Assembly: GCA_023544645.1 (NCBI GenBank)
Contig: JAMJFO010000029.1
Span: 1-37,982 of the forward strand
Length of the DNA: 37,982 nucleotides
Direction of reading: 5' to 3'
Origin: Desulfobulbaceae bacterium
GTDB lineage: Bacteria; Desulfobacterota; Desulfobulbia; Desulfobulbales; Desulfobulbaceae
The notes below the pieces were generated by a model. It was not told where the DNA came from. It saw only the letters and a program-made list of their open reading frames with translations, and ran no database searches. A program made the translations under genes and the position numbers. This document shows, one piece after another, positions 721 to 37,553 of the stretch (position 1 is the first letter of the stretch; each line of letters opens with the position of its first letter).

Positions 721-1408
721 CCTCGATATACTGGAACGCACCGTTGTCCAACTTGGAGAACTTGCCGACAGGTTGGTTTTCCTTGGTGGCTGTGCTGTTG
801 GCCTGCTCCTGACAGATTTGGCTGCGCCGCCTGTCCGCCTTACACATGATGTTGATGTCATAACGGAAGCGGCAACATTAGCTGATTATTATCGTTTAGC
901 GGAACTGCTGCGCGAACATGGTTTCCATGAAGACTCCACCGAAGATGCCCCGATTTGTCGATGGAAAGCATCCAATATCATTTTAGACGTAATGCCGACG
1001 GAACCAGCCATCCTTGGTTTTGGTAGTCATTGGTATGCAGAGGCACTGGAAGCTGCTGCTTTTCATGAACTGCCATCGGGGAAACAGATCCGGATGATCA
1101 CCGCGCCATATTTTCTTGCCTGCAAATTTGCCGCCTTTGATGGTCGGGGGAATAATGATTTCATGATGAGTCACGATATAGAGGATATCGTGGCGATTTT
1201 GGATGGCAGGCCGGAAGTTGCAGCAGAGGTAGGGCAGGCGTCTCTCAAGTTAAGGATTCACCTCGCCCGGCGATTCCGGGAATTGTTGGAAAATCCCGAC
1301 TTCCGTGAGGCTCTACCGGGCAATATGCCGACAGATGCGGCAAGCCAGGCAAGGGTGCCGATAATTGTGCAACGTATGAGAGCAATAGCAACATTGGGAG
1401 AATCCTGA
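698..1408 (+). CDS. AbiEii-like nucleotidyltransferase, putative toxin
   Basis: This 236-residue protein carries a nucleotidyltransferase signature: GGCAVGLLL (residues 30-38) followed by DVD (51-53), the pattern of a pol-beta-type fold with two metal-binding aspartates. HDIEDIVAIL, about two thirds along, resembles the segment after the catalytic core in AbiEii/DUF6036-type proteins. Members of this group act as the toxic half of type IV or type II-like systems, some by adding nucleotides to tRNA 3' ends. The overlap with the upstream wHTH gene fits that pairing. The substrate cannot be told from sequence, and a housekeeping nucleotidyltransferase is a less likely alternative. Confidence 0.65.
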   Translation: MPRILNPNLDILERTVVQLGELADRLVFLGGCAVGLLLTDLAAPPVRLTHDVDVITEAATLADYYRLAELLREHGFHEDSTEDAPICRWKASNIILDVMPTEPAILGFGSHWYAEALEAAAFHELPSGKQIRMITAPYFLACKFAAFDGRGNNDFMMSHDIEDIVAILDGRPEVAAEVGQASLKLRIHLARRFRELLENPDFREALPGNMPTDAASQARVPIIVQRMRAIATLGES

Positions 1409-1477
1409 CCTCGGGAGGGGTCGGAAATAGTGTCAAATCATTATTCTTGACAACATTGCCCAACTCATTGTTTTAAA

Positions 1478-1606
1478 ATGAAATATCTGGACCAGGAAGA
1501 CGTGAGAATTATTGCAACAGCCACCGCGATGCCGGAAAGAATTTCGTCGGAAAAACAGTCCGGTTATCTGGTGAATCTGCTTAAACGGTCGAACTTGAGG
1601 GATTGA
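1478..1606 (+). CDS. Possible 42-residue protein or gene remnant
   Basis: A short frame starts MKYLDQEDVRII and ends LLKRSNLRD. Its composition is protein-like (mixed charged and hydrophobic, with helical periodicity). A TTGACA lies 26 bp upstream, but there is no convincing ribosome site: TTTTAAA precedes the ATG. It could be a small gene, or the surviving start of a larger one. I do not recognise the family. Confidence 0.2.
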   Translation: MKYLDQEDVRIIATATAMPERISSEKQSGYLVNLLKRSNLRD

Positions 1607-1686
1607 AGCTGTCGGACGGCTGAACAGATTCTGGAGATGCATCTAAATTGGCTTGGCGGATTGCAATTTTCGTCCTCAGGCAGCAT

Positions 1687-1715
1687 TGTATTTTATATGA
1701 ATACATCTGAATACA
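1687..1715. promoter_or_regulatory. Candidate operator of the RHH/ParE module
   Basis: Three related half-sites lie just upstream of the antitoxin gene: TGTATT (1687-1692), then TGAATACA at 1698-1705 and again at 1708-1715. The direct repeats are 10 bp apart, one helical turn. The first half-site is inverted relative to AATACA at 1700-1705. Ribbon-helix-helix antitoxins commonly bind short repeated half-sites of this kind next to their own promoter. The repeats are visible; binding is inferred. Confidence 0.45.
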
Positions 1716-1743
1716 AACGACTATCATGTCCGGAGGAAATGAT

Positions 1744-1983
1744 ATGAAGACCACAACCATTCGCATGGAAGACAAAACACTGGACCGTGTCGACACAATG
1801 GCCAAAAGCCTGAGCAGGTCCCGGACATGGGTTATCAATCAGGCGATTGAACGGTTTTTGAGCTATGAGGAATGGTTTATCCGCGAGGTTAACGCCGGTC
1901 TCGATGAAATGCGGGATGGCGACTTTGCTTCTCCCGAAGAGATCCGGGCAGGATTTCAAAAGTGGGGGGTGAATGCGGATTAG
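1744..1983 (+). CDS. Ribbon-helix-helix antitoxin (CopG/ParD type)
   Basis: This 79-residue protein begins MKTTTIRMEDKTLDRVD, a typical RHH beta-strand entering helix 1, followed by SRSRTWVINQAIERFL as helix 2. It would bind DNA as a dimer and neutralise the ParE-like toxin encoded immediately downstream. The acidic C-terminal half (DEMRDGDFASPEEIRAGF) is the likely toxin-wrapping region. I chose ATG 1744 over an in-frame ATG at 1726 because GGAGG at 1732-1736 sits seven bases before 1744. The stop lies inside the toxin gene (11-bp overlap). Confidence 0.88.
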   Translation: MKTTTIRMEDKTLDRVDTMAKSLSRSRTWVINQAIERFLSYEEWFIREVNAGLDEMRDGDFASPEEIRAGFQKWGVNAD

Positions 1984-2257
1984 GTGGGCCAGGAAGGCGC
2001 TGGTCAACCTGGAGGCTGCGGTAAAATATATTGCGGCGGCCAGCCCCGGCAGCGCCCGGGATGTCGCGCAAAAAATCAGGGACAGCATTCAACTCCTGAG
2101 CGGGCAACCCGGTATGGGAAGGCCAGAGCGGGTTGCCGGCACCAGAGAACTGGTGATTCCCGGCCTGCCATTCATCGTTCCCTATGCAGAGTATGGCGGC
2201 GAAATTGTTATATTACGCATCGTTCACCCTTCCATGAAATGGCCTGATTACTTCTAA
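1973..2257 (+). CDS. ParE/RelE-superfamily toxin
   Basis: This 94-residue protein begins MRIRWARKALVNLE and has AAASPGSARDVAQKI, GQPGMGRPERVAGTREL and IVILRIVHPSMKWP, the usual ParE/RelE order of two N-terminal helices and a C-terminal beta-sheet with a basic residue before the final strand. ParE toxins poison DNA gyrase and RelE toxins cleave mRNA on the ribosome; pairing with an RHH antitoxin and the GRPERVAGTREL motif favour ParE. The gene starts within the antitoxin coding region, as is typical for coupled expression. Length is normal, so it appears intact. Confidence 0.88.
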   Translation: MRIRWARKALVNLEAAVKYIAAASPGSARDVAQKIRDSIQLLSGQPGMGRPERVAGTRELVIPGLPFIVPYAEYGGEIVILRIVHPSMKWPDYF

Positions 2258-10273: not shown

Positions 10274-10804
10274 TCAGTCTATGGGCAAGACATCCTCGGT
10301 AATACATCTGGAATACCAATAGTCAATACACCTTACATAGTTATTATCACAGGCTTCCGCCGAAAGCTGATCATATTCACCATTGATTGCATCCAACGTA
10401 CATTGATTCCCTTCCGTTTCACAGGTGGCATCACATAGATTTCGCTGGGCACTGCACTCGGAAAGCGGGGTTCCCTGACTCACGCAGTTGTCAAAAATTG
10501 TTTTGCACGAAGTGCCACAGGCCAGCTTTTCCTCGAAACATTCCTGCAGGTGGTACTGGATCTTTTCCTGCACACTCATCAGGCAATAGTCACGTTCCGA
10601 TTCGCAGAGCTCCTTGGCATTTTCACGACAGGCTACGGCTCTAGCTGATGCTACGGCTCTAGCTGATTGCGCCGCACTCTGCAGCGCCGAAATGTATAAC
10701 GCCCAGGGGGCCTCATACTCCCGGGCAAGAGCTCCACAGGGAACTGCAACCCACAACGCGGCTGCACAAAAAGACATTCTCAGGAAAAACGATGAAAGGG
10801 ACAT
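10274..10804 (-). CDS. Secreted 14-cysteine protein, paralog 1
   Basis: This 176-residue protein has an N-terminal signal peptide (hydrophobic residues about 10-25, likely cleavage after GALA) and a mature domain with 14 cysteines. The motifs LCESERDYCLMSVQEK, FEEKLACGTSC, QLSAEAC and CIDYWY recur almost unchanged in the gene at 32428-32937. Cysteine spacing is identical apart from one residue between the ninth and tenth, which suggests a disulfide-bonded or metal-binding helical domain in the periplasm or outside. AGGAG stands seven bases before the ATG. A duplicated SARAVA unit precedes the first Cys. I do not recognise the family; a function cannot be given. Confidence 0.75.
   Translation of the reverse strand: MSLSSFFLRMSFCAAALWVAVPCGALAREYEAPWALYISALQSAAQSARAVASARAVACRENAKELCESERDYCLMSVQEKIQYHLQECFEEKLACGTSCKTIFDNCVSQGTPLSECSAQRNLCDATCETEGNQCTLDAINGEYDQLSAEACDNNYVRCIDYWYSRCITEDVLPID
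10632..10667 (-). repeat. 18-bp in-frame tandem duplication
   Basis: GCTACGGCTCTAGCTGAT occurs twice in a row within the 14-Cys gene, encoding SARAVA-SARAVA just upstream of the first conserved cysteine. It is perfect at DNA level, so it is recent, and in frame, so the protein tolerates it in the linker. The paralog at 32428 lacks it. Confidence 0.9.
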
Positions 10805-11807
10805 GGGCTCTCCTGTTACCTACAAAATGTATATCTATAACAACCTGAATCGACCTTGCGGCGGGCGATCATAACATTCATCGTCTACTCCTGACGAACC
10901 GATACGAAAAGAAAGAAGCAAGGATCTGTTCACCTTTTTTTCCGAACATGCCGCATGGCAGGAATAGACATAGCTTAATGCAAAATATCGCGCCTCCAAA
11001 ATATTATACAATCCTGAAAAACAGGAAGTCAAACAAAAGTTGCTGCCTGAGGCATAGGAAAAGGGGTGAAAGAAATTGTGAATGAAGAATAAAAGGGCAG
11101 GAGGCGGGACTCCCGACTGCGCCGGGGCATCAAGACCGGACCATCCCCTCTCCACCCGGGGGAGAGATGAAGCCAGGTAAAGGGGGCGTATTTTCCCATT
11201 GGTCCTTGCCGAGCACCGAAGAAGATGTCCGGAATCACTGGAATGCGCACCGGATCGGCTGAACCTTGACGGGCCCGCCACCAAATATGGTGGTTTTCAT
11301 AACAAATAAGACGAAAAAGACAAAGTTTATCAGCTTACTTGTTCGAAAAAAATGGCGACAGGATTATTTATTCCTTTTACCGCACTCTGATGAATGCAAA
11401 TTGCAAGTGCACCACGCGCCTCGTTTCCGGATGAACACTATTTAGCCGCTTGACGGCTTGCCCGACATCTTCTTCCTTCACCTTCTTCAAATTGATTCCC
11501 AGGGAAAATATCCCCCGAGATCCCTTCCCTCTTCCGCATCGCCCAAAATTTGGGCAGAATGGCATATTCTGGCCCGAAATTTGCAATATTTATATAATCA
11601 GAGTATTATTATTTAACCATAAAGCAAATTCCGGCAAAACATCATTTACAGGAGAAATGAGCAGGAGGAGGGGGAACCGGGAACAAACGGATAAAGCGGC
11701 AGGTTGATCAGGAACAGAAAAAAATCAAGCCACCCCGGCCATCTGTTTAAAAATGCTCTATTCCGCCTTCTCGTAACGAAATAAACAGAACTATCAAGGT
11801 AGTCAGT
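10805..11807. other. 1-kb intergenic region before the signalling cluster
   Basis: Contents: the promoter area of the 14-Cys gene (AT-rich, no clear boxes); a hairpin CTCTCC/GGAGAG with loop ACCCGGG at 11148-11166; copy 2 of the 40-bp repeat at 11347-11388; and a 69-codon minus-strand frame (11377-11586) with protein-like GINLKKVKEEDVGQAVKRL but no recognised family, perhaps a remnant. Other frames (10835-11284 minus, 11450-11707 plus) are low-complexity and unsupported. AAGGTAG at 11796-11802 is the ribosome site of the next gene. Confidence 0.4.
11347..11388. repeat. Short 40-bp dispersed repeat, copy 2
   Basis: AAAAAATGGCGACAGGAT, TATTTATTCC and ACCGCACTCT match 5257-5297. As in that copy, it sits at the 3' end of a minus-strand frame. 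The GGCGACAG...TATTTATTC layout resembles short REP-like debris. Confidence 0.5.
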
Positions 11808-31733: not shown

Positions 31734-32264
31734 TCAGTATGAAAAAGTCAGACCGAGACCGACTCCGTAAACAAAGCGGCCACTCTCATAGATGTCCCTC
31801 ACATCAACTACATCGTTGATGTGAAACTGATATTCCAGCAGCCCATAGAGGAAGGTTGTCTGATTCATGAAATATTTAATACCGATTTCCGATCCGGCAA
31901 CAAAGCGGTCATCTTCCTCCGCGTCCTGGATATAGCCCATTGACAGCCCTACCAGAGGGACCCATGCGTCAGAACCGAAATAATAATTCGCAATCACCCT
32001 GGGGGAATCATTCCAGTCACGGCCATCCGGAATATTTATAAACGATCCGTCCTGCCTGACAACCTTTTCCAGGTTGAGAAACCGCTCGATACTCCAAGAA
32101 GATGCGAGCCCGGTACGGTCCAATTTCCCATTATTCAATCCGGTCCCGATAACAGTAAATTTCCGCTCACCAGGTTGAAAGCCTGATCCTGTTTGCGCAG
32201 CCGAAATCAGGGGAGTCAGCACCATTATAGCCGCAGCGACATATATTCCACTTTTCGACAACAT
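31734..32264 (-). CDS. Putative outer-membrane beta-barrel protein
   Basis: This 176-residue protein has a signal peptide (MLSKSGIYVAAAIMVLTPLI, cut after SAA or AAQ). Alternating hydrophobic/polar strands follow (RVIANYYFGSDAWVPLVGLS, RFVAGSEIGIKYFMNQTTFL, RFVYGVGLGLTFSY), and it ends in aromatic Tyr, as outer-membrane barrels do for BAM recognition. Size suggests an 8-strand barrel. GGTGAG just before ATG 32264 fits a start there; a longer in-frame start (32345) would add an odd N-terminus. The ligand is unknown. Confidence 0.72.
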   Translation of the reverse strand: MLSKSGIYVAAAIMVLTPLISAAQTGSGFQPGERKFTVIGTGLNNGKLDRTGLASSWSIERFLNLEKVVRQDGSFINIPDGRDWNDSPRVIANYYFGSDAWVPLVGLSMGYIQDAEEDDRFVAGSEIGIKYFMNQTTFLYGLLEYQFHINDVVDVRDIYESGRFVYGVGLGLTFSY

Positions 32265-32427
32265 GATTCTCACCCACGCCAAATGGATTAAGTAACTTTT
32301 CACAAAACAGAAACCTCTAAAGGAGTAATGCAAAAACGATACCAAAATTAATATTATTTGTGGCCGTTTCTACTCATGTCCACGAAAATTTCCCGCTGCC
32401 ATTTATCCCCAGACTGTTGACATGACA

Positions 32428-32937
32428 CTAGTAGTTTCCCTCAAAAGCACAATAACCATACCAATACTCTATGCACTTTCCGTAGTTGCCGCCACATGCT
32501 TCTGCCGAAAGCTGCTCATAAGTGCCATTTACTGCATCCAGCCGGCACCGATGACCTTCATCCACACACTTTATATTACTGCATATTTCCCTCTGGTCAC
32601 TGCATGTGGATTGCGGAGTTCCCGTGGCCGCGCAATCAGCAAAATCAGTGCTGCACGAAATATTACAGGCCCACTTTTCCTCCAAACATCTTCGCAGGTG
32701 GTACTGAACCTTCTCCTGCACACTCATCAGGCAATAGTCCCGTTCCAACTCACAGAGTTTTGTTGCATTATCAAGACAGGTGTTGATTTCTGCCGTATCC
32801 GCATCAGCCTGCAACACTGAAGCGTATGTCGGCCCGGGGTTGTCACCCCCACTGGCAGAATCAACGCAAATAGATGAAATAACGGACAAAAAAGCTACAC
32901 AAAACCACATCCGCATCGAATGCAAAAAAAGAAGCAT
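32428..32937 (-). CDS. Secreted 14-cysteine protein, paralog 2
   Basis: This 169-residue protein has a signal peptide (MLLFLHSMRMWFCVAFLSVI, cut near SASG) and a mature domain matching the gene at 10274-10804. All 14 mature cysteines are kept, with the same gaps except one extra residue between Cys9 and Cys10. LCELERDYCLMSVQEKVQYH and YEQLSAEACGGNYGKCIEYW are nearly identical. GGAGG five bases before ATG 32937 fixes the start; a longer frame from 33009 lacks such a site. It has its own promoter (32981-33009). The family is unrecognised and likely periplasmic or secreted with disulfides. Confidence 0.78.
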   Translation of the reverse strand: MLLFLHSMRMWFCVAFLSVISSICVDSASGGDNPGPTYASVLQADADTAEINTCLDNATKLCELERDYCLMSVQEKVQYHLRRCLEEKWACNISCSTDFADCAATGTPQSTCSDQREICSNIKCVDEGHRCRLDAVNGTYEQLSAEACGGNYGKCIEYWYGYCAFEGNY

Positions 32938-32978
32938 ACGTCCTCCGGTTGCCTCGCAAAGTATTTGTATCTTTGCTT

Positions 32979-36885: not shown

Positions 36886-37320
36886 TTAATCCTTGCCAAG
36901 AATCACATCGGCCATACTCTTCCGGTCCTGACAGAAGAGTTTTTTTACCCGCTTCCGGTACTCCTCAGGGGTCACATGTTCCTGGTGGGTGCCGATGATG
37001 AGCTTAATGTCGGGATATGCCTCGGTCAGCGCTTTTTCGTATTTTTTAAGAAAGGGGCAGAGGGCCTTCATGCAGTAAGTAAAATGGATGGCATTCAAAC
37101 GGAACGCCGTCAGCCCTTTGATTCTCTGCAATAACTTGTCAGCGCCGGTCAAGGTTGGACACCCCGGACAGTTGATGATTCCAACCAAAACAAGTTCTTC
37201 TTCCGCTGGATAGTCAGAAAATGTGCCCCGCCGTTTTCTGAAATCCGCCAGGCAACTGGCGGAACAACAGCCTAGATCCTGAGTGGCGTTGGAACAAGTG
37301 AGAATTCCGATACGTACCAT
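36886..37320 (-). CDS. CGGC-domain protein
   Basis: This 144-residue protein begins MVRIGILTCSNATQDLGCCS, with SCLADF, GIINCPGCPT, HFTYCMKALCPF and IGTHQEH, the conserved Cys pattern of CGGC-domain proteins (putative metal-binding, common in anaerobes). The role is unknown; redox or metal handling is often suggested. An in-frame start 126 bp upstream would add an N-terminal part without family similarity, so ATG 37320 is preferred although its ribosome site is weak. The YCII-like gene follows after 27 bp. Confidence 0.85.
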   Translation of the reverse strand: MVRIGILTCSNATQDLGCCSASCLADFRKRRGTFSDYPAEEELVLVGIINCPGCPTLTGADKLLQRIKGLTAFRLNAIHFTYCMKALCPFLKKYEKALTEAYPDIKLIIGTHQEHVTPEEYRKRVKKLFCQDRKSMADVILGKD

Positions 37321-37553
37321 AACTACTCTTAGTATTTCCCCTGGAGAAAGAATTTCAAGCCGACTGTAAACAACACAAAAAAGGTAATGCAAAAGTGGTT
37401 GCCATTTTATATCCTCTTCGAAACTAATAATCCGAAATTTTAGCAAATTGCAACTAGTTAGCGCATAAAATGCCTAAACAGTCGGAGCCATATTTTGGAA
37501 TTATGTCCAAGGGGTGATCAACGATTTTCAGAATAAAGCGCAGCAGTTAAAAA

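Follow-up and report, generated by a model that had tools for sequence, protein, structure and literature searches.

The window analyzed here, a stretch of 37,982 nucleotides from a Desulfobulbaceae bacterium (contig JAMJFO010000029.1), encodes two small cysteine-rich proteins, P1 and P2 (Table 1), and raises the question of what kind of structure is specified by their shared framework of 14 cysteines. A first-pass annotation had described them as secreted paralogues, and both open reading frames are indeed present as described, with all 14 framework cysteines aligned. The list of cysteine gaps that it gave (7,6,14,6,3,6,9,6,3/4,6,16,6,7) is exact, the sole difference lying between Cys9 and Cys10 (3 versus 4 residues). 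In our alignment, P1 and P2 share 51% identity overall and 59% in the core, and they detect each other within their own genome with an E-value of 1.3e-45. Given this degree of core identity, the excess of dS (1.17) over dN (0.30) in the core (dN/dS ~0.26) and the strong Shine-Dalgarno sites located 5-10 nt 5' of both ATG codons, P1 and P2 are, as judged from their sequences, real genes under purifying selection that code for exported-looking paralogues. The mechanically called frame of P2 begins at a TTG codon (33009), and its ATG start lies at 32937. Both N-termini contain, by eye, a hydrophobic, signal-peptide-like segment. A near-consensus sigma-70 site (11 of 12 positions), which is a pattern match only, is found ~200 nt upstream of P1. 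The GC3 values of the two genes (0.51 for P1, 0.49 for P2) are lower than those of most neighbors (0.56-0.71), which would be compatible with acquisition but is no proof of it.

Table 1. Positions of P1, P2 and their parts in the window.
Feature	Position	Strand	Basis or remark
P1, exported 14-Cys protein, 176 aa	10274..10804	-	predicted export
P1 putative Sec signal peptide (residues 1-27), AXA-type cleavage following ALA	10724..10804	-	by eye
P1 AGGAG Shine-Dalgarno site	10810..10814	-	
P1 hairpin arm 1, Cys1-Cys7, residues 59-107	10484..10630	-	Cys framework and AlphaFold2
P1 hairpin turn, residues 108-116, VSQGTPLSE	10457..10483	-	GTP kept in 4/4 members
P1 hairpin arm 2, Cys8-Cys14, residues 117-167	10304..10456	-	Cys framework and AlphaFold2
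P2, exported 14-Cys paralogue, 169 aa from ATG	32428..32937	-	predicted export
P2 GGAGG Shine-Dalgarno site	32942..32946	-	supports ATG start at 32937
P2 arm 1, Cys1-Cys7, residues 54-102	32632..32778	-	Cys framework
P2 arm 2, Cys8-Cys14, residues 112-163	32449..32604	-	Cys9-Cys10 gap longer by one residue

The impression that this pattern belongs to no known family held up in database searches. Pfam gave no match for P1 and P2 up to an E-value of 10 and none for the four family members described below up to an E-value of 1, and NCBIfam, PHROGs and PADLOC gave none either. Sequence searches of the PDB gave no convincing match, and a profile search returned three matches, none of them convincing. 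The best, to Cin1 of Venturia inaequalis (2lht, E 0.005), was judged to be compositional. Cin1 does contain a C-x9-C-x6-C element at a helix-loop-helix, and its repeats form three-helix bundles, but it is a fungal repeat effector, and the match is local, covering ~30 residues per repeat.

P1 and P2 are the sole members in their own 3.85 Mb, 99.9%-complete genome, where they lie ~22 kb apart on one contig. Among the 258 genomes of the order Desulfobulbales that we examined, which at the same time make up all those examined from its class, two others carry the protein. P3, from a metagenome-assembled genome of the same order (JAHIUA010000089.1), shows 56% identity over its full length and 58% in the core. 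P4, from Desulfofustis glycolicus DSM 9705 (Desulfobulbales by NCBI taxonomy), is only 25% identical; it retains all 14 cysteines and their symmetry, with changes in the loops and one further cysteine pair, and it bears out the earlier choice of the Desulfobacterota as the group to search for homologs. The motifs LMSVQEK, QLSAEAC and YWY, previously called invariant, are so between P1 and P2, but P3 keeps only LMSVQEK unchanged and P4 none of them. No member was present in any of the six other genomes examined from the genus of the window genome, and no relative was detected in the 395 phylum genomes, viral contigs, phages or plasmids searched. When 84,980 species genomes were scanned, by an approach that relies on two short motifs, only P3 and P4 were recovered. 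With so few carriers among the genomes scanned, the family appears to be sparse and patchy in its distribution. Weak matches at two other loci of the phylum (L019 and L020) read through stop codons or fit short stretches and were attributed to chance; the idea that selenocysteine replaces cysteine in L019, prompted by its TGA codons, was dropped, as this match lacks a supporting gene model.

The most informative property of the framework is its symmetry. In P1, the cysteine gaps (7,6,14,6,3,6,[9],6,3,6,16,6,7) read nearly alike in both directions, with a twin CX3C motif at the center whose two halves are 23 residues apart. The positions of Ci and C(15-i) add up to 226 for each of the three outer pairs and to 224 for each of the four inner pairs, a constancy that necessarily results when cysteines face each other across two antiparallel helices. 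The sums are likewise constant in P3 and P4, whereas P2 is off by one residue at its CX4C, a position at which a helix would call for CX3C and which thus counts against a hairpin. Permutation of the gap order yielded p ~1e-4 for P1 and P2 and values of 1e-4 to 9e-4 across the family members. In P4, every spacing within the arms is kept, and the altered gaps are the joint of the first arm (13 instead of 14 residues) and the turn (12 instead of 9). The P4 turn gains exactly two cysteines, as would be expected of an eighth disulfide. A GTP motif in the turn is invariant in all four members, and a layer formed by K93, also invariant, and E131 sits between the inner rungs.

AlphaFold2, supplied with these four sequences only, returned a model with a mean pLDDT of 84, rising to 93-96 in most of the core, and a pTM of 0.62. 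It comprises four helices (residues 7-48, 51-82, 87-114 and 122-145 of the mature chain), which carry Cys 1-3, 4-7, 8-11 and 12-14, respectively, and it places the conserved GTP at the central turn. Fold searches with both AlphaFold2 models retrieved coiled coils of a generic kind, the best with a Z of 9.3 across 71 residues; the matches to helices 2-3 were long coiled-coil hairpins, although for helices such matches are uninformative. These searches gave no significant full-length match, and Foldseek gave none with an E-value below 0.001. The recovery of coiled-coil hairpins without a significant full-length match gives a hint that the predicted hairpin may be extended and not packed into a compact bundle.

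Taken together, we consider it probable that P1 and P2 are exported antiparallel alpha-helical hairpins closed by seven nested disulfides, which may act as rigid extracytoplasmic structural or binding modules. Following export via the Sec pathway, the mature part would fold back on itself such that the outer rungs join helices 1 and 4 (C1-C14, C2-C13, C3-C12) and the inner rungs helices 2 and 3 (C4-C11, C5-C10, C6-C9, C7-C8). The cysteine pairs would be oxidized after export by DsbA, recharged by VKOR or DsbB, giving rise to a rigid rod that may resist proteases and denaturation. All three carrier genomes encode DsbA, in combination with VKOR in the window genome and in Desulfofustis and with DsbB in the third carrier. 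The first-pass annotation had offered seven disulfides or a metal cluster as plausible. The palindromic pairing of the cysteines, the paired extra cysteines of P4 and the Dsb/VKOR proteins favor the disulfides, and the metal persists as a minority reading. Nested disulfides are the simplest reading of export, an even and conserved cysteine number, paired gains, the placement of K93 opposite E131 and the presence of an oxidation pathway, with the disulfides, their pairing, the extended shape and the role all inferred. The palindrome, the predicted helical hairpin and the recurrence of the scaffold in other proteins (see below) had not been part of that annotation. By itself, the palindrome is no proof of disulfides, because any antiparallel helices faced with cysteines can give rise to such symmetry, as illustrated by the partly palindromic cysteines of Csp3 chains.

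These Csp proteins represent the most serious alternative, a thiol-based metal store in which reduced cysteines in the core of a four-helix bundle bind Cu(I) or other soft metals. Csp1-type proteins are exported four-helix bundles that bind 13 Cu(I) ions (PMC7558416), and Csp3 shares with P1 and P2 the CX6CX3C motif within a helix and the mirrored outer cysteines. Two of the three PDB profile matches were indeed Csp3-type chains (5arm and 6qyb), yet with insignificant E-values of 3.7 and 6.8. AlphaFold2 likewise predicts four helices, but Csp is absent among the fold matches listed for its models. On the other hand, the Csp repeat family (PF03860, DUF326) has no match in P1 or P2 and none above the cut-off in the carrier genomes. 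The cysteine spacing of Csp proteins is dense (3,2,3,2,3), whereas the in-register positions of those cysteines are occupied here by K93, I103, R121 and E131, and Csp3 contains eight Met/His residues in its core, as opposed to two to five in the P1/P2 family. Moreover, we saw no Tat motif, and the carriers encode the oxidizing Dsb/VKOR machinery. A metal store is thus unlikely, although it deserves to be kept in mind.

The other two alternatives draw on proteins that resemble the proposed hairpin itself. Small Tim proteins are helical hairpins with twin CX3C motifs and nested C1-C4 and C2-C3 disulfides (PMC3759932). Like these and the twin-CX9C CHCH proteins of the mitochondrial intermembrane space, which are oxidized after import, P1 and P2 would form an antiparallel helix pair with nested disulfides, and the cysteine framework and the AlphaFold2 helices do describe a helix-loop-helix with nested cysteine pairs, the disulfides themselves being predicted. 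By analogy, P1 and P2 could be periplasmic chaperones that oligomerize and use disulfide-necked hairpins to hold outer-membrane proteins, and the open reading frame that follows P2 in the same direction is weakly predicted to encode a beta-barrel. However, no beta-barrel neighbor was recognized at P1 or beside the relatives, and the sparse distribution speaks against a general chaperone. We regard this function as very improbable. Small Tim/CHCH proteins also differ in that they are eukaryotic, have two disulfides rather than the seven proposed here and show no sequence match, including none between their Pfam families and the P1/P2 family. A small secreted effector, inhibitor or antimicrobial, akin to the plant alpha-hairpinins, seems to us a long shot as well. 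In alpha-hairpinins (4C and 6C types), nested disulfides connect the two helices of a helix-loop-helix whose CX3C...CX3C spacing is palindromic (PMC11591084), and the sporadic distribution and the paralogues would fit a lineage-specific weapon or inhibitor. However, alpha-hairpinins are short peptides with two or three disulfides that lack the CX6C motif and the 14-residue spacer, and P1 and P2 are much larger, with a net charge of about -11 to -13. The 23-residue gap between the CX3C motifs of P1 and its ten further cysteines lie outside the published definition, CX3CX(4-20)CX3C plus at most two further cysteines (PMC11591084), and no immunity or processing gene was recognized next to them.

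The genomic context offers few clues to the function of the proposed hairpin. P1 is located between a cold-shock gene (named by eye) and PAS kinases, and P2 between the beta-barrel-like open reading frame and methyltransferase/PhzF genes; P3 is found near a collagen-like and P4 near a VWA-like protein (names again assigned by eye). Around P1, P2, P3 and P4 there is no conserved gene neighborhood or shared partner, and a rigid extracytoplasmic structural or binding/interaction module, which we take as the likeliest role, is a guess. The beta-barrel-like frame (31734-32345, minus strand; PF13505 below the cut-off) immediately follows P2, with which it shares the strand, and has a low GC3, as do P1 and P2. 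Furthermore, there is a CGGC-domain gene (36886-37446 of the window, minus strand) less than 5 kb away from P2, and a CGGC-like frame, identified by eye (L021:8500-8865, plus strand), ~1 kb from P3. Since none was recognized near P1 or P4, this proximity is probably a coincidence.

The same cysteine grammar recurs in other, seemingly unrelated exported proteins, which speaks in favor of the hairpin reading. We scanned genomes for TGY codons at the positions of CX6CX3CX6C-turn-CX6CX3CX6C and dropped repeat-derived frames after translation. All look-alikes were found via this central motif, and a reversed-pattern control also matched in some genomes. On translation, the matches in viral contigs all proved to be frames of CTG/TGC or Arg-Cys repeats, and many genome matches were repeats as well. 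An 86-aa lipoprotein with the lipobox LFAAGC, encoded by three genomes that belong to a single genus (L025, L026 and L027, minus strand), consists after maturation of hardly anything but CX6CX3CX6C-x9-CX6CX3CX6C. In L028 (plus strand) and L029 (minus strand), an 8-Cys hairpin, with two extra cysteines in the turn like P4, is inserted into exported proteins of ~350 aa with a C-terminal membrane segment. The scaffold is also present in an exported Desulfobulbales protein (L166). A further exported protein (L160, plus strand), encoded in a member of the Desulfofustis family, has very many cysteines in CX6C/CX3C repeats in its N-terminal part, followed by a longer, extracellular-looking region. 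Scans of five look-alikes against Pfam and NCBIfam gave no match near the cut-off. Finally, two predicted secreted proteins with 30 cysteines, L182 (~1342-2013, plus strand) and L183 (L204:358-1104, minus strand), come from different families of the phylum and are 32% identical, with nearly one cysteine framework. The first 20 cysteines of L183 form an exact palindrome (3,6,14,6,3,6,3,6,3 |8| 3,6,3,6,3,6,14,6,3), in which nine gaps are mirrored around a proline turn, STDPTPDI (permutation p ~1e-5).

P1 and L183 have the element C-x6-C-x14-C-x6-C-x3-C-x6-C exactly in common, including a 14-residue spacer that lay outside the search pattern. Common descent is nevertheless not established, because hhalign assigns the P1 family and these Cys-hendecad proteins (L182/L183) a probability of only 2.6% (E 0.018), and a pairwise BLASTP match (E 0.005) is driven by cysteines; judging from the sequences, the proteins may just as well have converged on one architecture. 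It is conceivable, at somewhat less than an even chance, that all these proteins make up a new architecture class of exported proteins in the Desulfobulbales and the wider phylum, ranging from the 8-Cys lipoprotein to the 30-Cys secreted proteins and consisting of antiparallel helical rods with little hydrophobic core and long disulfide ladders, in which the cysteine spacing, followed outward from the turn, is identical on both arms (6-3-6-14-6).

In the papers cited here, helical hairpins locked by disulfides contain two or three such bonds. If our interpretation is correct, a ladder of seven rungs, and perhaps ten in L183, in an anaerobe would constitute an unusually rigid natural rod. It would also provide a test case for how DsbA and VKOR order many nested disulfides, with the palindrome predicting every disulfide pair, and may serve as a scaffold for engineering.
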